Shown: one piece after another, positions 47,337-61,900 of the stretch
How the letters are laid out: each line of letters begins with the position of its first letter
How positions within the stretch are numbered: the stretch's first letter is position 1
Source: Brevundimonas pondensis
Lineage (GTDB): Bacteria; Pseudomonadota; Alphaproteobacteria; Caulobacterales; Caulobacteraceae
NCBI RefSeq assembly: GCF_017487345.1
Contig: NZ_CP062006.1
Span: forward strand, 186,001-250,000
Reading direction: 5' to 3'
Length of the DNA stretch: 64,000 nucleotides
Made by a program: the position numbers and the translations under genes
Notes under the pieces: model-generated
The model's database searches: none
Told to the model about the DNA's origin: nothing
The model's input: only the letters and a program-made list of their open reading frames with translations

Positions 47337-47394
47337 TGGTGCGGGTGGCCGGGCTCGAACCGGCACTCCTCTCGGAACAGGATTTTGAATCCAG
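47337..47394 (-). repeat. attachment site: displaced 3' part of tRNA-Leu(CAA)
   Basis: Read on the minus strand, this has the anticodon loop TTCAAAA (anticodon CAA), a long variable arm (TTCC-GAGA-GGAG), the T arm GCCGG/CCGGC with TTCGAGC and an acceptor 3' half ending in CCA. The D arm and 5' acceptor half are absent and the integrase coding end takes their place. Part of the anticodon stem mismatches, which suggests the crossover core starts about there. It is the displaced copy made when an element integrates into a tRNA 3' end; the complete tRNA should lie at the other end, beyond 64000. Confidence 0.85.
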
Positions 47395-47395
47395 T

Positions 47396-48499
47396 TCAGA
47401 CGGCCTTCAAGACCTTGCTTTTCCGTGTCTTTTTAGCTGGCTCTGCCTCTGGTGTGGCGTATACGTGCCGCAACGTTCGGCGCAGGTCATCCCGCGAGGT
47501 GTGAGCGTAGCGCATGGTGGAGGCGATAGCCTCATGACCAAGCAGCTCCTTAACGGCGGCCAGATTGCCCCCTGATTGCCGCAGGAGCGTGGTCCCTGCG
47601 TGGTGGCGAGCGTCGTGGACCGCGCGCACGTCGGTCAGGCCCGCGCGCTTCAGGGCCACCCCGGAGGCCGACTGGAAGCCGCGCCAGTGGATCGGCGTCA
47701 GCGACCCGTCGCGCATCTCCCTGAACCACACAGTGTCCAGTCCCGCTGCAACCGCTCGGCCGGCGCGCGCCCGCATCTCGGCGGCGTCCTCAGGTATGAG
47801 GGTAATGACCTGGGGTCCGTTCTTGCGGTCGCGGGTGTATATGTCGTCACCGTGCATGGCCGACAGCGGGAAGAAGGCCTCTTTCAACCGGACGCCATAG
47901 CGCAGGATGAAATGCAGCAGCGGGCGGTGCCAGACGGGCAGGTTGGCCTCCCATGCCGCGATCTCCTCATCGGAGAAGAACCGCACCCGTTCTCGAGGCT
48001 CGGACAATCGCAGGTCGGACCAGGGGATTTCCTTGACGGTGGCCTCCAGATTGCGCCGGGCGTAGTTCAGGATCGGCCGCAACGTCGAGTCTATCATGTC
48101 CCGGTTGACGGTGCTGTTGGACGGGTAGGCCTTGCTCTCGACCCTGTTCTTGCCGCGCAGGATGGGCTCCACGCGACGGGCATTGATCGCCGCCGTGATG
48201 TGCCGCGCCCCAATCTCCCCAACCAGCACATTCTGGCCCATGTGGCGCAGCATGATCTCAATGCGCAGGGCCGTGGTCTTGGCTGACTTCTTGTCGGCGC
48301 CCTTGGCCTGAAACCAGAGGTCGGTCGCCTCCTCTAGCGTGAGGGATTGGTGAAGACCTCCCACGAGCGCTTTCCGGTGTTCCCGCTTCTCGATGGTGAG
48401 GGCGTCTTCCTTGAGGCGCGCGCCGGTCGAGCCACGGAACCGTTCGCCCCGAACCGTGAAATCATACCACCAGATTTCGCCTCGCTTGAAGACGGACAA
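47396..48499 (-). CDS. int: tyrosine integrase of the tRNA-Leu prophage
   Basis: A 367-residue recombinase. Catalytic residues are Arg204 (RYGVRLKEAF), Lys226, His296 and Arg299 (AVHDARHHAGTTLL), His322 (LLGHEAIASTM) and Tyr331 (RYAHTS). A core-binding domain covers residues 55-160. The start is TTG 48499 preceded by GGAGG, inside the excisionase reading frame. The stop is at the displaced tRNA-Leu fragment, giving the standard int-att order. It is the last gene of the long leftward operon and appears intact. Confidence 0.95.
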   Translation of the reverse strand: MSVFKRGEIWWYDFTVRGERFRGSTGARLKEDALTIEKREHRKALVGGLHQSLTLEEATDLWFQAKGADKKSAKTTALRIEIMLRHMGQNVLVGEIGARHITAAINARRVEPILRGKNRVESKAYPSNSTVNRDMIDSTLRPILNYARRNLEATVKEIPWSDLRLSEPRERVRFFSDEEIAAWEANLPVWHRPLLHFILRYGVRLKEAFFPLSAMHGDDIYTRDRKNGPQVITLIPEDAAEMRARAGRAVAAGLDTVWFREMRDGSLTPIHWRGFQSASGVALKRAGLTDVRAVHDARHHAGTTLLRQSGGNLAAVKELLGHEAIASTMRYAHTSRDDLRRTLRHVYATPEAEPAKKTRKSKVLKAV

Positions 48500-52163: not shown

Positions 52164-52501
52164 GCTTGCTCTCCCTTCTCGGGGCGGTCACCTGTGGCGC
52201 GGGTTATGGCGTCACGGAGCGCAATGGCCAGCTTGGCCTCTTCCAGCCCGTAAACCGACCGAATGTCTTCCTCCGACAGCCCTACGTAGGGCTCGTGGCT
52301 CTTGATCGCGACAGTCAGCAAATCAGGCGCGGCGGCGATCAGGCGGGCAACGTCCTCGCCTTGACTGTCGGACAGCGTGCAGATGGCCGGTTGCCACGTC
52401 ATTCCGGTTTCGTCTGGGGCACTTACCGATCCCCAGACGACCCAGTCGGAGCTTTCCGACTCCCATGCATAGGTCCACGGCGTATGCTTCACCCCGCTCA
52501 T
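52160..52501 (-). CDS. phage hypothetical protein
   Basis: A 113-residue protein with KHTPWTYAWESESSDWVVWG and EDVARLIAAAPDLLTVAI, the ARLIAAAPDLL phrase being frequent in small phage proteins of unknown role. ATGA-type overlap joins it to both the methylase gene and the gene at 50787-52163. Confidence 0.72.
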   Translation of the reverse strand: MSGVKHTPWTYAWESESSDWVVWGSVSAPDETGMTWQPAICTLSDSQGEDVARLIAAAPDLLTVAIKSHEPYVGLSEEDIRSVYGLEEAKLAIALRDAITRATGDRPEKGEQA

Positions 52502-53340
52502 GCCGCTGCTCCGAAAAGCCCGCGCGAGCGATGAAGACGGCGCTCACCTTGCGGGTTGATCCACAGGACTTCCGTGCGCGCCCTTGCGCCATCAGCTAGG
52601 GCGGCGCGTTCGATGCGGGTCCATCCCGGGAGCGAGTCGTCATAGAGGCTGTGAGGATAGCCGGAGAGCACGACCGCACCCTTCAGACCTCCCAGGAAGG
52701 CCAACAGCTTTCCATGGTCTTCCGCCGTCAGTTCGTGCGCGTAGTCTCCCCCAGCGTCTCGCGTGTCCGGCAGATACGGCGGGTCCACATAGTGCAGGGC
52801 CTCGTCGGTATCGTGCGCCGCCATCACTTCGCAGGCATCCCGGTTTTCGATGGTTACACCGCGCAGACGCTCAACCACGGCCGCCAGGGCTTCGGGGTAG
52901 TTGAACCAGTCGCGCGCGGGCGTGGTGCCGCTCCGATTGCTGTTTGCCCTGAAGCCCGTGGCGCGGTGCGTCCCGTTTCTGCCGAAGCCCATGAAGGATC
53001 TAACGATCAGCTTGCGGGCCTGCTCGACTGCATCATCCGTAGGATCATAAGCCTCGACCTGTTCGGTGCGGGCGAATGGGGTCAAGCGCACGAGGTCGGC
53101 CAGCCGCGCACCGTTTTCAGGGTCGCGCAGGACACGGAACAGGTTCACCACGTCGCAATCGAGGTCGTTGTAAACCTCGGCGTAGGCGCGGGGTTTCCGC
53201 AGAAGCACGGACGCTGCGCCACCGAATGGCTCGACGTAAACGCGGTGGGGCGGGAGGTTCTCGATGATCCACGGCGCAAGCAACCACTTGCCGCCATGCC
53301 AGCGCAAAACCGGGCGCGTCAGTTCAGTGATCACGCTCAT
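52498..53340 (-). CDS. Dam-type DNA adenine-N6 methyltransferase
   Basis: A 280-residue D12-class methylase. Motif X is VLRWHGGKWLLAPWI (residues 11-25), motif I EPFGGAASVLL (37-47), and the catalytic motif IV YVDPPYLPDT (184-193). The target-recognition part lies between. It would methylate adenine in phage DNA, perhaps to avoid host restriction or time gene expression. No cognate endonuclease is encoded nearby. Starts overlap the next gene. Confidence 0.93.
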   Translation of the reverse strand: MSVITELTRPVLRWHGGKWLLAPWIIENLPPHRVYVEPFGGAASVLLRKPRAYAEVYNDLDCDVVNLFRVLRDPENGARLADLVRLTPFARTEQVEAYDPTDDAVEQARKLIVRSFMGFGRNGTHRATGFRANSNRSGTTPARDWFNYPEALAAVVERLRGVTIENRDACEVMAAHDTDEALHYVDPPYLPDTRDAGGDYAHELTAEDHGKLLAFLGGLKGAVVLSGYPHSLYDDSLPGWTRIERAALADGARARTEVLWINPQGERRLHRSRGLFGAAA

Positions 53341-55195: not shown

Positions 55196-55704
55196 GCAGC
55201 CTCCTGCTGGCGCTGGAGGGTGGCGGGCTCGACCTCGATCAGAGCCGCGACGATCTCAAGGATTGCGGTTTTCGAGGCCTGGAACTCGGCCTTGTCCATC
55301 GCGCGGCGCGACTGGCTCTTGGGCTTGAGGACGCGGACGACCGTGTCTGCGACGATGACCACGGCGTAGTCATCGGTCTGCTGCTGGAGCGAGGCGGCGA
55401 GACGGCGGGCCTCGGTCTTGAACATGCAGGCGTAGTCGGTCGTGTCGCAGTAACCGGCCTGGATCAGCGCCCACTTGCGCAGGTGTTCCGGGGTGGGGTG
55501 TTGAGCGGCGAGCGCCTCGGGCAGGCTGGCCCATGCTTCGCGCAGCCACGCGAACTCCTGCCTATGGCTTGGCTCGGAGCGGTCTTCGACGGGGGCTAGC
55601 CGATAGCTCTCCCCGATGCAGTAGGTGGCGTCGGCCTGGCGCTGGAAGCCCTTGCGGACCTGCATCGCTTCGCCGTCCCAGACGAAGGGCAGAGGGGCGC
55701 TCAT
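55192..55704 (-). CDS. phage protein adjacent to bet (conserved, unknown)
   Basis: A 170-residue protein beginning MSAPLPFVWDGEAMQV and containing HLRKWALIQAGYCDTTDYAC and PKSQSRRAMDKAEFQASK. This arrangement is familiar beside annealase genes in alphaproteobacterial phages; the role is unknown. The ATG overlaps the bet stop by four bases. Confidence 0.78.
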   Translation of the reverse strand: MSAPLPFVWDGEAMQVRKGFQRQADATYCIGESYRLAPVEDRSEPSHRQEFAWLREAWASLPEALAAQHPTPEHLRKWALIQAGYCDTTDYACMFKTEARRLAASLQQQTDDYAVVIVADTVVRVLKPKSQSRRAMDKAEFQASKTAILEIVAALIEVEPATLQRQQEAA

Positions 55705-56615
55705 TGCGGCACCGTGTCGAGCGCGCGCCGCTTGGCCTCGATCACCTTCTTGAGCTCCAGGGCATCGCCAGAGGCACGAGCCCAGAACTCTTGCAGGGGC
55801 GCGCGGTTGGCGCCCTCGAACCAGTCGAGCATCTGCATGTCGCCGATCTCGGACACGCGCTCGCAGAGACGGTCATAGACGACGCCAAGTCCGACGCTCT
55901 CCAGCGGGGCGTTCGGGAAGAGCTGGAACAGGATGCCGTTGGCGCCGCCGATGCGGGCAAGCCGCTGATCGCGCTCCTCGGTCGCCACTGCCTCCGATGG
56001 CAGGACCTCGACTAGCTTGGCCTGATCCAGCTCGGCGCCCTCGTAGAGCCCACTCAGGTCTTCGGGGAAGGCCTTGCGCAGCGCCTGGGCCTCGGCGCAC
56101 TTCGCCAGCATGACACGCGGCATGCGGCCCCAGTTGCCGCCGGTGTCCAGCGTCTTTCGCCCGGTCGGCCGGCGTCGCCCATCGTCGCCCTCGCCCCATT
56201 CGTCACTGATCGGCGCGAACTCGTCCCAATAGGCGACGCCCGTGACGGGCTTGTCGTCGATGTAGACCTTCACCAGGGCCTTGGTCAGGCCGAGCGGGTT
56301 CGTCGGCCCTTTGGTTTCGGCGTCGTATTCGAGGACCGGCTCGTTCTCGTCAGGACGATAGCGCCCCGAGCGCGCTGCGATAACCCGAAGGCCGTCGATC
56401 GTGGTGATGATCGACATGCGCCGCTTGTCTGGCTTGTTCTTGTTGAAGACGAGCGGGCTGATCTGCTTGCGGAAGGGGTCGAGCCCCGCGGAGCGCGCCG
56501 CCGCCATGAACAAGTCGAACTCGGCGTCATTGCAGTCGGTGGCGATGGTGCGGCGGATCAGGCTGATTTGCGCGCCTGACAGGGCCGATGTCGGAAGGAT
56601 GGCGACGTTGCTCAT
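55701..56615 (-). CDS. bet: phage recombination annealase (Bet/RecT family)
   Basis: A 304-residue single-strand annealing protein. Family features are FDLFMAAARSAGLDPFRKQI, a central IITTIDGLRVIAARSGRYRP, TKALVKVYIDDKPVTGVAYWDEF and GRMPRVMLAKCAEAQALRKAFP. It pairs complementary strands during phage replication and recombination. No adjacent exonuclease (RecE/exo) gene is recognised, although nearby unknown genes could serve. It shares the leftward operon. Confidence 0.93.
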   Translation of the reverse strand: MSNVAILPTSALSGAQISLIRRTIATDCNDAEFDLFMAAARSAGLDPFRKQISPLVFNKNKPDKRRMSIITTIDGLRVIAARSGRYRPDENEPVLEYDAETKGPTNPLGLTKALVKVYIDDKPVTGVAYWDEFAPISDEWGEGDDGRRRPTGRKTLDTGGNWGRMPRVMLAKCAEAQALRKAFPEDLSGLYEGAELDQAKLVEVLPSEAVATEERDQRLARIGGANGILFQLFPNAPLESVGLGVVYDRLCERVSEIGDMQMLDWFEGANRAPLQEFWARASGDALELKKVIEAKRRALDTVPQ

Positions 56616-58145: not shown

Positions 58146-58345
58146 GCCCCAGCCGCCTCGACCATGGAGGCGCGCAGTTCCGTGAACCGCGCCTCCAGCT
58201 TGGCGAACTCGGCCAGAAGGTCGTCGCGGTGATAGTCTGCGCCGCCTCGCTCGTGGGTCAGCCAGTAGACAAGATGTGCAGCGTTAGCCACGGCTTGTGC
58301 GTGCAGCTTGATGTGGACGTATCCAGCGACCGGGAACGCGCTCAT
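58142..58345 (-). CDS. small phage hypothetical protein
   Basis: A 67-residue protein with a hydrophobic N-terminal half (AFPVAGYVHIKLHAQAVANA) and a helical acidic/basic C-terminus. The ATG 58345 overlaps the preceding stop as ATGA, which decides the start over a longer alternative. Role unknown. Confidence 0.65.
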   Translation of the reverse strand: MSAFPVAGYVHIKLHAQAVANAAHLVYWLTHERGGADYHRDDLLAEFAKLEARFTELRASMVEAAGA

Positions 58346-58533
58346 GCCGCTTGCTCCCAGCACTCGCCGTTCATGGCGGACCACAGGGCGCGGTCGAAGG
58401 CGACTTCCTCAGGATTGGTCGGGACCGGGCCGAAAGGAACGGTCAGCGCGTGGTAAGCGGCGCGGGCGGAACCGTAGCGGGCCACTTCAACAGCGACGCG
58501 GGCTTCGGCTTGTGTCTGTGTGGTGCTGGCCAT
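58342..58533 (-). CDS. first gene of the leftward phage operon, hypothetical
   Basis: A 63-residue protein, MASTTQTQAEARVAVEVARYG..., ending ALWSAMNGECWEQAA. It follows the pL-like promoter with a GAGGAG ribosome-binding site before ATG 58533. By position it matches the N/early regulator slot of lambda, but no antiterminator-like Arg-rich motif is seen. Confidence 0.7.
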   Translation of the reverse strand: MASTTQTQAEARVAVEVARYGSARAAYHALTVPFGPVPTNPEEVAFDRALWSAMNGECWEQAA

Positions 58534-58558
58534 GTGGCGCTCCTCAGTTCGTGAGGAG

Positions 58559-58586
58559 AGAATATCGGACGCTCCGATATTGTCAA
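58559..58586 (-). promoter_or_regulatory. leftward early promoter (pL-like)
   Basis: On the minus strand TTGACA (58586-58581) and TATTCT (58564-58559) are separated by 16 bases. The spacer contains the operator palindrome at 58564-58578. This places the first gene start (58533) about 20 bases after the expected transcript start. A repressor bound in the spacer would exclude polymerase. Confidence 0.8.
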
Positions 58587-58600
58587 TCGGTCATTCCGAT
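58564..58600. promoter_or_regulatory. left operator pair (OL-like)
   Basis: Two sites of the form ATCGG-N5-CCGAT: 58564-58578, extended to the perfect palindrome ATATCGGA-CGC-TCCGATAT, and 58586-58600 with spacer TCATT. A further half-site ATCGG lies at 58607-58611. The same motif is repeated at the repressor/Cro junction, so the repressor at 59430-60092 is the likely binder. Confidence 0.85.
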
Positions 58601-58668
58601 ATTTTTATCGGAGGCGCAGCAAGGCCTTGTCGTGTAACCCTGATCGGGCAACGCTCTGGGAGGGTATC

Positions 58669-59010
58669 GTGTTTTTTAGGATCGCGGTCGCTGCGGCGGC
58701 TCTACTGATTGCCGGGTCTGCAGCGGCCCAAGTCAATGTTCGGGGCTACACCCGCTCAGACGGCACCTATGTGGCGCCTCACACCCGCTCATCGCCAGGG
58801 ACCTCGCCGTCTTCCTACGGCTCCACGCCTCGTGCACCTGCTCAAGTTTACGGAGCGGCACCGCAAAGCAGCTCAGCCAATAGCTGCACAGGCCTTTGCT
58901 ATGGCCAGCCGAGCGCCACGACTAACGCGCCCCGCAACACAACGGTGTCTGGATACATCCGCCGGGACGGGACGTATGTGGCTCCATACACGCGCAGCCG
59001 TGGTAATTAG
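58669..59010 (+). CDS. exported phage moron with repeated GYxRxDGTYV motif
   Basis: A 113-residue protein starting at GTG 58669 after GGGAGG. A signal peptide (IAVAAAALLIAGSAAAQ) leads to a mature part with two copies of a motif near both ends: VRGYTRSDGTYVAPHTRS and VSGYIRRDGTYVAPYTRS. Between them lies a Ser/Pro/Ala-rich linker with one Cys pair (NSCTGLC). The DGTYV-type motif is found in small exported bacterial proteins of unknown role. It lies between the left operators and the repressor gene. Confidence 0.78.
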   Translation: MFFRIAVAAAALLIAGSAAAQVNVRGYTRSDGTYVAPHTRSSPGTSPSSYGSTPRAPAQVYGAAPQSSSANSCTGLCYGQPSATTNAPRNTTVSGYIRRDGTYVAPYTRSRGN

Positions 59011-59018
59011 AACCAAGA

Positions 59019-59426
59019 ATGCTCACCTCTATATTGATAGCGGCTGCAATCACGCTGGCTGAGCCAGGGAGTGATTACGAAGGTGTCGAACTTCCACCAA
59101 AGTACTCTGATGTCTTGGTGGGCGACTGGACATACATCGGTGAAGACGTAGATGGCGAGTCATTAGTCCTTGCGCAGCCATTCCGGTTGCGAGGGCGTGT
59201 ATGGGTACGCTTCGAATACGCAAAATCTACGGCTGGCGTGCGGTCAAGCAGGTCTCTAGTTGAGCTGGACTGTTCTCAGTGGCGTTTTCGATGGCTGCAA
59301 TCGGCCCATTTCGCAGGACAGAACCTCACATCTAGCTTGCGCTCTAATGCACAAACGTCAGAGTGGTCTTATGCGGCACCCAACACTATGGCTGAAGCAT
59401 TTCTAAATTATGGCTGCGGTGACTAG
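59019..59426 (+). CDS. exported phage moron, surface-adhesin-E-like
   Basis: A 135-residue protein following eight bases after the previous gene. It has a short N-terminal hydrophobic segment (MLTSILIAAAITLA), then beta-rich sequence with ARVWVRFEYAKS-like and SLVELDCSQWRFRWLQS segments. These resemble the SapE-like (surface-adhesin protein E) domain. It is much less GC-rich than the rest of the window. Its end lies three bases before the converging repressor stop. It may alter the cell surface in lysogens. Confidence 0.65.
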   Translation: MLTSILIAAAITLAEPGSDYEGVELPPKYSDVLVGDWTYIGEDVDGESLVLAQPFRLRGRVWVRFEYAKSTAGVRSSRSLVELDCSQWRFRWLQSAHFAGQNLTSSLRSNAQTSEWSYAAPNTMAEAFLNYGCGD

Positions 59427-59429
59427 TCA

Positions 59430-60092
59430 TCACATCCTACGCGTCACCCAGCGCACCCGACCGATAACCCGAACACGATCCTCGGCCACGCGATATTCGC
59501 CGTGCAGTGGGTTGTCGGACTTCAGCCTTACCTCGCTAGGATCGGTTCCCGGCACGCGCTCCAACCGCTTGCACACCAGCGCGTCGCCATCCCAGACCGC
59601 AAAGACACCAGGCAGGCCTAGGCGTTGGTCGTTCAGATCGATTAGCACGTAGTCGCCACTCGATAGGGTCGGCTCCATGCTGTCGCCAACGACCTCCTGG
59701 ACGGTTGCCTGCGAGGCGCGAACGCCTAGCCGGTCCTCAACCAAGAAACGCGGCAAGGCCCAATGGCGCCGCGTGCTTTCGCGATCCACGACAAAGCCAC
59801 CGCCGGCCGATAACCGCACGTCGTATTCTGGGATGCTGACCGAGTCGGGCAAGTCGGCGTGGACACTGTCTTCCGGCAACTCGTCGGAGACTTCGCCCTC
59901 CTGCGGCTCAAAGAAGCTGCGAGGCCGGTTGAATATCTTGGCGAGCGCGTCGCGATGGACGTGCCAGCTCTGAAGGCCGCCGCGCTCAAGGTCCGATATG
60001 GTCGATTGCCCCACCTTGAGCCGCTCGCCTAGAGCGGCCTGGGTCATGCCGAGACGCTTGCGTTCGGCCTTCAGTTTCAGCCCGAGGTTCAT
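59430..60092 (-). CDS. CI-like repressor with S24 self-cleavage domain
   Basis: A 220-residue repressor. The N-terminal HTH_XRE domain reads LKAERKRLGMTQAALGERLKVGQSTISDLERG (residues 7-38). The C-terminal S24 domain has Ser138 in VVGDSMEPTL and Lys175 in ALVCKRLERV as the cleavage dyad, and an Ala96-Gly97 bond in LSAGGGF as candidate cut site. It should hold the prophage silent and be inactivated after DNA damage. Start ATG 60092 follows an AAGG site. It faces the Cro-like gene across the three operators. Confidence 0.93.
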   Translation of the reverse strand: MNLGLKLKAERKRLGMTQAALGERLKVGQSTISDLERGGLQSWHVHRDALAKIFNRPRSFFEPQEGEVSDELPEDSVHADLPDSVSIPEYDVRLSAGGGFVVDRESTRRHWALPRFLVEDRLGVRASQATVQEVVGDSMEPTLSSGDYVLIDLNDQRLGLPGVFAVWDGDALVCKRLERVPGTDPSEVRLKSDNPLHGEYRVAEDRVRVIGRVRWVTRRM

Positions 60093-60134
60093 CCCGACCT
60101 TATGACCGGAAGAATATCGCCGCGCGCCCGATAA

Positions 60135-60185
60135 ATCGGGGCTTGCGATTATCGGTTCATCCGATATTATCGGGTCATGTCCGAT
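60135..60185. promoter_or_regulatory. right operator triplet (OR-like)
   Basis: Three sites between the repressor and Cro genes. 60135-60149 is ATCGG-GGCTT-GCGAT (one mismatch), 60151-60165 is ATCGG-TTCAT-CCGAT, and 60169-60185 is ATCGG with CCGAT after a seven-base spacer, overlapping the cro ATG. The middle site is the closest to the left-operator consensus. The three-site arrangement resembles lambda OR. Confidence 0.82.
60143..60170 (+). promoter_or_regulatory. rightward early promoter (pR-like)
   Basis: TTGCGA (60143-60148) and TATTAT (60165-60170) are separated by 16 bases, with the operator at 60151-60165 in the spacer. The design is the same as at the leftward promoter. The transcript start is expected near 60177, on the first base of the cro ATG. 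Confidence 0.75.
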
Positions 60186-60407
60186 AACGTCATCGACCAC
60201 CTCACTTCGCCCGAGCGCTTCGGCACCCAAACCCGGCTGGCCGAGGCGGCGGGCGTCAAGCCGCATACGATCAGTGAAAAGCGGCACACCAACAACCTGA
60301 CCCATAGTCAGATGCGGCGCATCCTCGCGGTTGCCCCCGCGATGGGCGTGAAGGTGGGGCCGGGCGACTTCTTCCCCGACTACCACCCGACCCGGCAGCG
60401 GAACTAG
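60177..60407 (+). CDS. Cro-like/YdaS-type repressor
   Basis: A 76-residue HTH protein, MSDNVIDHLTSPERFGTQTRLAEAAGVKPHTISEKRH, with the YdaS/Cro order TRLAEAAGVKPHTISEKR for the recognition helix region. It is the first rightward gene. It probably binds the same operators and turns off the repressor gene during lytic growth. No ribosome-binding site fits before the ATG because the promoter ends there. Confidence 0.85.
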   Translation: MSDNVIDHLTSPERFGTQTRLAEAAGVKPHTISEKRHTNNLTHSQMRRILAVAPAMGVKVGPGDFFPDYHPTRQRN

Positions 60408-60426
60408 CCCAATGTCTGCCGGGGGC

Positions 60427-60897
60427 TCAGTCATCATTATCCATCACACCGCCAACGGGCGCGTGGAAGCCGCATGTATCGCACTTGTGGATGCGAATCC
60501 GCGAATCGACATCGGTCGTCGCCTGGAGAAGGCCCTTGGCCCCCTTGTTGTAACAGGCTGCACAAAGGTTGTGCAGTGGCTGTCCCGCGCGCTCGGCGTT
60601 CTTAAGCGCATAGACCAGAACACCCGGATAGCGCCGCTGCGGCTCGTAGCGTTGAGCCTCGTCGGACCAGTCTTTAAGACGGGCCAACTCCTTGCCGAGG
60701 TCGTCTTTTGCTTGCAGGAGCGCCGCTTTCTCCTCTCGTGCAACGAGGAGTTCGTCATACGCCTTGATCAGCTCTCGCAACAGGTCGGCCTTGACCTGAG
60801 CAAGCGCCGCCCGTCCCTCGATACCGTCAAGGCTTTCGATCAGATCCTTCGCCGTCTTGAGGGCGGAGAGCCCCGCACTGATTTCCGCAATCATCAT
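60427..60897 (-). CDS. phage protein with coiled coil and zinc ribbon
   Basis: A 156-residue protein. The N-terminal 80 residues form a long helix with heptad-like Leu/Ala (LLRELIKAYDELLVAREEKAALLQAKDDLGKELARLKDW). The C-terminal half has CAACYNKGAKGLL and HKCDTCGFHAP, a CxxC...CxxC zinc ribbon. It lies against the rightward direction, converging on cro. Function unknown, perhaps DNA-linked. Confidence 0.78.
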   Translation of the reverse strand: MMIAEISAGLSALKTAKDLIESLDGIEGRAALAQVKADLLRELIKAYDELLVAREEKAALLQAKDDLGKELARLKDWSDEAQRYEPQRRYPGVLVYALKNAERAGQPLHNLCAACYNKGAKGLLQATTDVDSRIRIHKCDTCGFHAPVGGVMDNDD

Positions 60898-60967
60898 TCA
60901 ACCCCCGTTGTAAGCGGCGGGCAGAGTGGGGCCGGTCACGCCTCGGAGTCCAGTCGATGACTGGGTC

Positions 60968-61138
60968 TCAGTACCGAGCGTCGTCGCCTTCCGCTTCGTC
61001 AGCGGTCGCCAGCAGGACTTGTGCGAGGTCGCGGGCTTGCTGCGGTGACAGCTTGGCGAGCGATTCCACGGCGCCGCTCCAGACCCGCAGGATGACGGCG
61101 CCCTCGATGGTGCTGGCTGCAAATCTGACTTCGGCCAT
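60968..61138 (-). CDS. small phage hypothetical protein
   Basis: A 56-residue protein, MAEVRFAASTIEGAVILRVWSG..., with a C-terminal helix SPQQARDLAQVLLATADEAEG. It is encoded on the minus strand upstream of the zinc-ribbon gene. GGAGG lies before the ATG. No family is recognised. Confidence 0.62.
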   Translation of the reverse strand: MAEVRFAASTIEGAVILRVWSGAVESLAKLSPQQARDLAQVLLATADEAEGDDARY

Positions 61139-61157
61139 GGCGATCCCTCCGGTTGGT

Positions 61158-61400
61158 TCACGCTCTCACCGCCGGGCCAGTGAGTCCAGCCTTGGCGCGG
61201 TACGCCCTCGCGACCCGGCGCAGGCTTTCCGCCACCTTGGGCTCGGACTGATCGGCCAGGGCTTCGCACCGCGCCGCGCCAGCCGCCCATTCGGCTGCAC
61301 TGATGCGGGAGGCGGGCAGGGGCTCACGGCTCGCCGTCCGCGACTGAAAGCAAACAAAGATCACATCGCCGCCCGTCGCGGCCTCTCGCTGTCTGTCCAT
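61158..61400 (-). CDS. small phage hypothetical protein
   Basis: An 80-residue protein with SAAEWAAGAARCEALADQSE and KVAESLRRVARAYRAKAG helices. The start ATG 61400 and following codons look coding, although a later internal start is possible. It is the first of three minus-strand genes between cro and the CII-like gene. Confidence 0.5.
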   Translation of the reverse strand: MDRQREAATGGDVIFVCFQSRTASREPLPASRISAAEWAAGAARCEALADQSEPKVAESLRRVARAYRAKAGLTGPAVRA

Positions 61401-61477: not shown

Positions 61478-61900
61478 ATGAGCGTGCCTGTCATCAAGGC
61501 GCTGACCAAGCGCATCCGTAAGCGCATCGGCTCGTCGGAGCTGGCGGCTATGGCCTGCGGCCTATCGAACAAGGGCGCGTGGAGCCTCTACGAGAGCGAG
61601 AACCACCCCGATACGACCCTGCCGCTCCACCGCTTTCTTGAGTGCGCCAATGACGCCGAGAAGCAGGCGCTCATTGATCTGATCCGGCTGGCGATGGAGG
61701 GGGATGACGTACCCGAGTGCGCCAACACCGAGGCGAGCGAGACGACCGAGGCCGCAGCCGATCTGCAACGCGCCGTTCGGGAAGCTCTGCGCGACGGCAC
61801 CCTGACCCCGATGGAGCGCCGCACGATCACCGAGCAGGCCATGACGGTGAAGGCCAACGCGGACGACGTGATCCAGGCTGTGCACGGGGGGGCGAAATGA
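61478..61900 (+). CDS. CII-like phage regulatory protein
   Basis: A 140-residue protein with an N-terminal HTH-like region (VIKALTKRIRKRIGSSELAAMACGLSNKGAWSLYESENHPD) and a helical C-terminus (DLQRAVREALRDGTLTPMERRTI). The order fits phage CII-type regulators of alphaproteobacteria. It would activate lysogeny promoters or control replication genes. It starts the second rightward group; the stop overlaps the next ATG. Confidence 0.78.
   Translation: MSVPVIKALTKRIRKRIGSSELAAMACGLSNKGAWSLYESENHPDTTLPLHRFLECANDAEKQALIDLIRLAMEGDDVPECANTEASETTEAAADLQRAVREALRDGTLTPMERRTITEQAMTVKANADDVIQAVHGGAK

Follow-up and report, generated by a model that had tools for sequence, protein, structure and literature searches.

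The lysis-lysogeny switch of phage lambda combines an S24-family repressor, a divergent cro gene, and one operator sequence that recurs at both early promoters, with a site in each. Recombination genes lie to the left of this switch, and the CII gene and the late genes lie to the right. A prophage of Brevundimonas pondensis has the same layout, with a weakly matched, putative CII-like gene on the right, around a locus at positions 58559 to 60185 of the 64,000-nucleotide window that we analyzed (contig NZ_CP062006.1, positions 186,001 to 250,000). A lambda-type lysis-lysogeny switch with left and right operators (OL and OR) is the best reading of this sequence, and we put its probability at about 0.85. 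The type of switch is known, and this one is a variant with a different operator code. The half-site is not that of lambda, and the four sites at OR come in two spacings. Also unlike in lambda, cro is predicted to be leaderless, the repressor gene has a leader with a Shine-Dalgarno-like AAGG (by eye), and cargo genes lie between OL and the repressor gene, mostly reading toward the latter (by eye).

Two operator spacings have a possible parallel in Rhizobium phage 16-3, the C repressor of which reportedly uses operators of different geometry. Both are temperate phages of alphaproteobacteria. The half-sites are different: ACAA/TTGT in 16-3 and ATCGG/CCGAT here. CI/Cro switches also occur in the telomere phages PY54, N15, and phiKO2, which, unlike the prophage described here, are linear plasmid prophages; PY54 has one operator site. 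A study of PY54 used rapid amplification of cDNA ends and reports that neither its cI mRNA nor its cro mRNA has a leader, which is a precedent for a leaderless cro (PMC4488713).

A second feature of the locus, an inverted repeat at the start of its leftward early transcript, resembles an arrangement in phage T4. According to the T4 literature, leader hairpins hide the ribosome-binding site of gene e, soc, 49, and I-TevI in longer upstream transcripts, and RNA made from the proximal late promoters of gene e lacks the 5' part of the hairpin (PMC3014915). As in that account of gene e, the Shine-Dalgarno sequence here would be paired in a hairpin and the RNA would start inside the 5' arm, judging from the sequence and the predicted start. 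T4 is a lytic phage in which the device serves early/late timing, whereas here it would separate lysogenic read-through from the proper early mRNA.

Operators, promoters, and regulators

The half-site ATCGG/CCGAT is common to a pair of sites at OL and a four-site array at OR, none of which is assigned a strand. Both OL sites are exact, with a five-base spacer (N5). One (58564 to 58578) is in the spacer of the leftward early promoter, PL, and has counterparts in relatives; the other (58586 to 58600) is beside the PL -35, which it overlaps by one base. The OR array reads N7-N5-N5-N7, with centers at 60124, 60142, 60158, and 60177. Its first site (60116 to 60132, ATCGC-N7-CCGAT, one mismatch) came from a spacer scan of the prophage, has the same position in relatives, and lies over the probable promoter of the repressor gene, PRM. 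The second (60135 to 60149, N5, one mismatch, GCGAT) overlaps the -35 of the rightward early promoter, PR, just upstream of PRM. The third (60151 to 60165, N5, exact) is in the PR spacer, and the fourth (60169 to 60185, N7, exact) runs across the predicted PR +1 and the cro ATG.

PL (TTGACA-16-TATTCT, 58559 to 58586, minus strand) matches the consensus at 10/12 positions, and PR (TTGCGA-16-TATTAT, 60143 to 60170, plus strand) matches at 9/12. A promoter scan of the 2.1-kb region gave three promoter-like matches, versus 0.8 in shuffles. It did not report the probable PRM -10 (TATTCT, 60111 to 60116, minus strand), which was recognized by eye and has no good -35. The OR site at 60116 to 60132 touches this -10 and covers the bases upstream of it. 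The A of the cro ATG is seven bases past the PR -10, at the predicted +1. Therefore, cro is predicted to be leaderless.

An earlier note on this stretch had described the OL pair, three OR sites that included one with a mismatch and one with the N7 spacer, and a site inside the 16-base spacer of each early promoter (58564 to 58578 in PL and 60151 to 60165 in PR). All are present at the positions that it gave. Its OL/OR type of switch is also supported, but a switch complete with five sites is not, because the site at 60116 to 60132 over the repressor promoter had been missed. The note further had the sites flanking the repressor and Cro-like genes. The positions are correct, but the right-hand group is between the two genes and over the cro start codon. 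Finally, it named a wide random occurrence of the motif in the genome as a refutation, and no such occurrence is seen. There are 11 exact N5 sites genome-wide, of which 3 are at this locus, and with A/T on both flanks (WATCGG-N5-CCGATW) only 3 remain in 3,550,773 bases, all of them here.

The number of imperfect sites says little by itself: in the whole window, five N5 sites have no more than one mismatch and 4.19 are expected, which is not significant, and five stray one-mismatch N5 or N7 sites are elsewhere in the prophage. Exactness and clustering are a different matter. The prophage has three exact N5 sites, versus a mean of 0.115 and a maximum of 1 in 200 Markov simulations. Moreover, a stretch of 60 bp holds the starts of four N5 or N7 sites that have no more than one mismatch, and when the prophage was simulated 200 times with a first-order Markov model, the maximum was 2. 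The OL pattern is also scarce, being found in 2 of 131 genomes of the genus and in 1 of 398 drawn from the order, which was the B. pondensis genome itself.

The repressor (59430 to 60092, minus strand, 220 amino acids) is of the CI type, with an N-terminal HTH_3 domain and a C-terminal Peptidase_S24 domain (PF00717). In an alignment of 35 rows, G97, S138, and K175 do not vary at all, and A96 hardly varies. A set of Ala-Gly, Ser, and Lys residues is the pattern of self-cleaving repressors. A structural model (predicted local distance difference test score [pLDDT], 85.1; predicted template modeling score, 0.58) matches the lambda, 186, and LexA repressors. The Cro-like protein (60177 to 60407, plus strand, 76 amino acids) is encoded divergently. 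It has no Pfam match and a weak match to a PHROG repressor family (phrog_35, E 6.4e-4). Its model is small and all-helical, with five helices and a fold like a helix-turn-helix (HTH) domain (pLDDT, 85.6). Foldseek rows for this model include a chain of the TP901-1 CI-MOR complex, Xfaso1 Cro, and P22 Cro, with nothing below an E value of 0.001. The repressor is matched by 302 phage records, all below 60% identity, and no phage record matches the Cro-like protein. The few named relatives of CI and Cro include Brevundimonas, Phenylobacterium, and Caulobacter, with outliers labeled Kiloniella and Janthinobacterium.

These elements suggest how the switch might work. A repressor dimer would read the half-sites through its QSxxS recognition helix and would shut both early promoters from the N5 sites that lie within their spacers. 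From 60135 to 60149, which is about 39 bp upstream of where PRM is predicted to start, it might help transcription of its own gene, since PRM has no good -35. Cro might use the two N7 sites, at PRM and at the predicted leaderless cro start, to turn off first the repressor and then its own synthesis. On DNA damage, RecA-stimulated self-cleavage at Ala96-Gly97 would bring about induction. By position, then, the four OR sites could serve in PRM repression, in PRM activation together with a block of the PR -35, in a block of PR, and in a block of the cro start.

Some sites outside the prophage were also considered. The exact genome matches L020, L021, and L022 have no promoter of this kind (by eye). 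A scan of genome contigs with the OR core gave a single match, L063, in a coding region (pyrE-like by eye) of an unrelated metagenome-assembled genome, and it was rejected. The host has an exact ATCGG-N7-CCGAT site over the ATG of a gene that we take to be PmbA/TldE-like (C1:2526789-2526805; L016:9790-9806). TTGCGA is 16 bases before a -10-like CCATAT there, so that by eye the geometry is that of the phage PR and cro start. The pattern of this site, ATCGGNNCATGTCCGAT, was found in 18 of 150 genomes searched, B. pondensis included, and 18 nonphage places with it code for a like N terminus. Only one of the other 17 genomes (G051) is among the repressor matches. Therefore, we took this site to be host sequence and a coincidence, and we rejected it as the target of a host regulon.

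The operator code in related phages

A scan of viral contigs for repressor homology, which gave 21 loci and made no use of the motif, supplied the relatives L030 to L043, with repressors 60 to 81% identical to this one. All have sites at both OR and OL, except for L040, which ends before OL. The half-sites are kept while the spacers drift. Over 11 distinct OR sequences, half-site columns are on average 96% conserved and spacer columns 76% (permutation P, 3e-5), part of this conservation being that of promoter sequence. The near-repeat contigs L031, L037, L039, and L040 were excluded from this figure and from the OR-region and PL-leader counts below, and L025 was displayed but excluded from the 11 sequences.

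More distant phages were brought in by scanning for the OL pattern. L085, L084, L090, and L086 keep the operators even though their repressors are only 47, 41, 39, and 30% identical to this one, respectively (for L086, over residues 1 to 176). Their recognition helices are all of the QSxxS kind: QSVISEIE in L085, QSVVSNWE in L084 and L090, and QSVVSEME in L086. L087, which was matched over part of the S24 domain only, carries both OL sites, of which one has a mismatch, plus another N5 site. In contrast, L044 to L046 have an S24 domain that is 67 to 71% identical, a different HTH, and no operator array. L046 has one stray one-mismatch site, and the PL spacer of L044 has GTCGGAAATCTCCGAC, a related but different palindrome. 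Therefore, the operator code appears to follow the HTH, that is, the DNA-binding domain of the repressor. The earlier note had credited the switch with an operator specificity of its own. The code is indeed distinct, but it is not private to this phage; it is common to a wider phage group.

CI and Cro do not share the same closest relatives. CI is 80 to 81% identical to those of L030, L032, and L033 and 61 to 62% identical to those of seven contigs of the L034 to L043 group, whereas Cro is 55 to 66% identical in the former and 83 to 86% identical in the latter. In L025, which is the same prophage as L090, CI is 40% and Cro is 80% identical to those here. The pattern suggests that phages have exchanged CI and Cro, with a breakpoint near OR, as a shared operator code permits. 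Contrary to the usual codivergence of repressor and operator, cross-immunity is predicted among phages with repressors that are only 30 to 47% identical. For temperate phages of probably Caulobacteraceae hosts, this switch comes with natural domain swap controls.

Within 15 OR regions, sites with at most one mismatch are present at the cro-start N7 position in 14, the PR-spacer N5 position in 14, the PR -35 N5 position in 11, and the PRM-side N7 position in 12. This arrangement raises the question of whether spacing divides the labor between the two regulators. The idea that the N7 sites are for Cro and the N5 sites are for CI is a tentative one, to which we give less than even credence. If it is true, then repressor genes as little as 30% identical could replace one another while the operator code stays fixed and Cro is conserved. 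We give a little short of an even chance to a simpler arrangement in which one repressor binds both N5 and N7 sites, with the spacing tuning its affinity and no division between CI and Cro, as is said of Rhizobium phage 16-3. The half-site common to both kinds of site favors this arrangement. What argues against it is the placement of the sites, with N7 at PRM and the cro start and N5 at the -35 and in the spacer of PR, which looks like a division of labor, though by position only.

Several observations weigh against the switch as we have drawn it. All four OR sites are present at no more than one mismatch in only 9 of the 15 OR regions. The PRM-side N7 site is absent in L084 and in L025/L090, and the cro-start N7 site is also absent in L025/L090. 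All transcription starts were predicted from -10 boxes only. Activation of PRM from 60135 to 60149 is uncertain because the center of this site is near -39 of a PRM start predicted by eye, and the canonical class II activator position is -41.5.

An inverted repeat at the PL start

Directly after the PL -10 and across the predicted PL start, there is an inverted repeat, CTCCTCA-CGAAC-TGAGGAG (58540 to 58558, minus strand). Its 5' arm is between the -10 and +1, and the predicted start at 58552 leaves six of its seven bases upstream of +1. Within the 3' arm is the Shine-Dalgarno-like run that precedes the first gene of the PL operon, a 63-amino-acid open reading frame (ORF) with no family in Pfam and PHROG searches (58342 to 58533, minus strand). 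Folding of the repeat would be limited to RNA begun upstream, by read-through from the repressor promoter in a lysogen, and would hide the Shine-Dalgarno sequence of this gene. RNA initiated at PL would lack most of the 5' arm and would be translated. Such read-through is possible, because the repressor gene is oriented toward OL and the sole terminator-like match on its strand between 58400 and 60500 is weak and inside that gene.

The PL motif was present in 18 of 22 loci scanned, which is not a frequency, since six of them (L082 to L087) were obtained by means of it. A stem of 5 to 10 pairs, beginning at or next to the -10, is present in 17 of 17 distinct PL leaders, and in all 17 a Shine-Dalgarno-like purine run is in the 3' arm or within two bases of it. 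A stricter scan caught 14 OL promoters, and in every one the stem was no more than one base away from the -10. Of the 17 leaders, 13 beat a base shuffle at a P value of 0.05. The mean stem score was 6.94 for native arms versus 5.20 for arms swapped between phages, and 0 of 20,000 permutations reached the native total. Among 14 distinct stems (L044 included), each of the six loop-proximal pairs occurs as two to four pair types. These were counted from the listed stems, as a MAFFT alignment misplaced the hairpin arms. L044, the relative with a different repressor HTH, retains a short start hairpin at its PL (CTCC-ATCGAAC-GGAG, L044:11595). Rfam gave no match for 58300 to 60600.

On these grounds we give about even odds to the proposal that the hairpin mutes read-through mRNA in the lysogen. 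If it does so, the translational trick known from T4 would extend to silencing leaky early mRNA in a lysogen. The proposal has its own difficulties. The leaders of L033, L036, L042, and L084 individually fail the base shuffle at a P value of 0.05, and only two control promoters were available, with scores of 4.0 (the PL of L044) and 3.4, which are too few to use. In L082, OL is immediately preceded by what by eye resembles a terminator, a GC hairpin with a T run, which would stop read-through there; this either speaks against read-through in that phage or is a sign that upstream transcription needed stopping.

The repeat might instead be a DNA site for another dimeric regulator. It covers -6 to +13 of the predicted start, which is a typical position for a repressor. 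However, the arms vary among the phages while their complementarity is kept in 14 distinct stems, and the position of the purine run relative to the 3' arm holds in every leader; a protein site would be expected to conserve sequence. We therefore regard a DNA site as unlikely. We think it improbable that the repeat arises simply because a pyrimidine-rich discriminator is followed by a purine-rich Shine-Dalgarno sequence. The left arms are mostly C/T-rich and the right arms G/A-rich, as this would predict, and the control promoters are inadequate, but swapping arms keeps the composition and yet lowers the stem score, with the caveat that related leaders are not independent.

It is less likely than not that both layers operate together, with the 5/7 half-site spacing splitting the operators between CI and Cro and with PL starting inside a covarying Shine-Dalgarno hairpin that silences lysogen read-through. 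Neither layer is reported in the open-licence literature searched. As for the operators themselves, we give hardly any credence to the idea that these palindromes arose by chance in an XRE regulator locus that is defective or unrelated: exact sites with N4 to N8 spacers do occur at 49 places in the genome, but the simulations, the A/T-flanked genome count, and the conservation in L030 to L043 are all contrary.

Cargo genes and the prophage

The slot between OL and the repressor gene holds two ORFs on the plus strand. The first (58627 to 59010, 127 amino acids) encodes a putative secreted protein with a signal peptide-like start (by eye); it has no Pfam or PADLOC match, and a similar ORF is present in L032. 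The second (59019 to 59426, 135 amino acids) is Adhesin_E-like (PF16747, E 3.2e-9). In the window and ten relatives, this slot is 0.34 to 4.0 kb long and carries unlike genes, and the ORF adjoining OL reads toward the repressor in 10 of the 11 (by eye), the exception being L033. Selected ORFs that were searched include Hint-domain proteins (L030 and L036), a KilA-N protein with a BstA-like C terminus (L041), a PDC-S42 candidate defense protein (L034), and an M78 peptidase (L035). Slot ORFs match the BstA, PDC-S42, and capP-like peptidase models of a defense library.

The locus is within a prophage, as the earlier note had proposed. This prophage of 41.7 kb is apparently of the temperate lambda type and seemingly intact. 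It is framed by exact 58-bp direct repeats: attL (47337 to 47394, no strand) and attR (genome positions 275001 to 275058), which is within a tRNA-Leu(caa) gene. The integrase gene adjoins attL (47396 to 48499, minus strand; phrog_1, E 1.5e-30). The leftward operon encodes HNH, Gam-like, and RecT proteins, the last being a single-strand annealing protein (55701 to 56615, minus strand; PF03837, phrog_2780). The rightward arm encodes SSB, RusA, terminase, portal, major head protein, and endolysin. The CII-like regulator (61478 to 61900, plus strand) is a weak match (phrog_101, E 4.6e-6; Phage_CP76, 21.4 bits, under its cutoff of 26).

Between cro and the CII-like gene, three minus-strand ORFs (60427 to 61400) oppose PR, and one of them (60427 to 60897) matches phrog_1244. 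A small protein encoded at 61897 to 62226 matches the phrog_362 transcriptional repressor family (E 1.1e-7) and by eye has a LexA-type DNA-binding domain. The prophage also encodes a DNA methyltransferase (52498 to 53340; phrog_56, E 1.3e-61).

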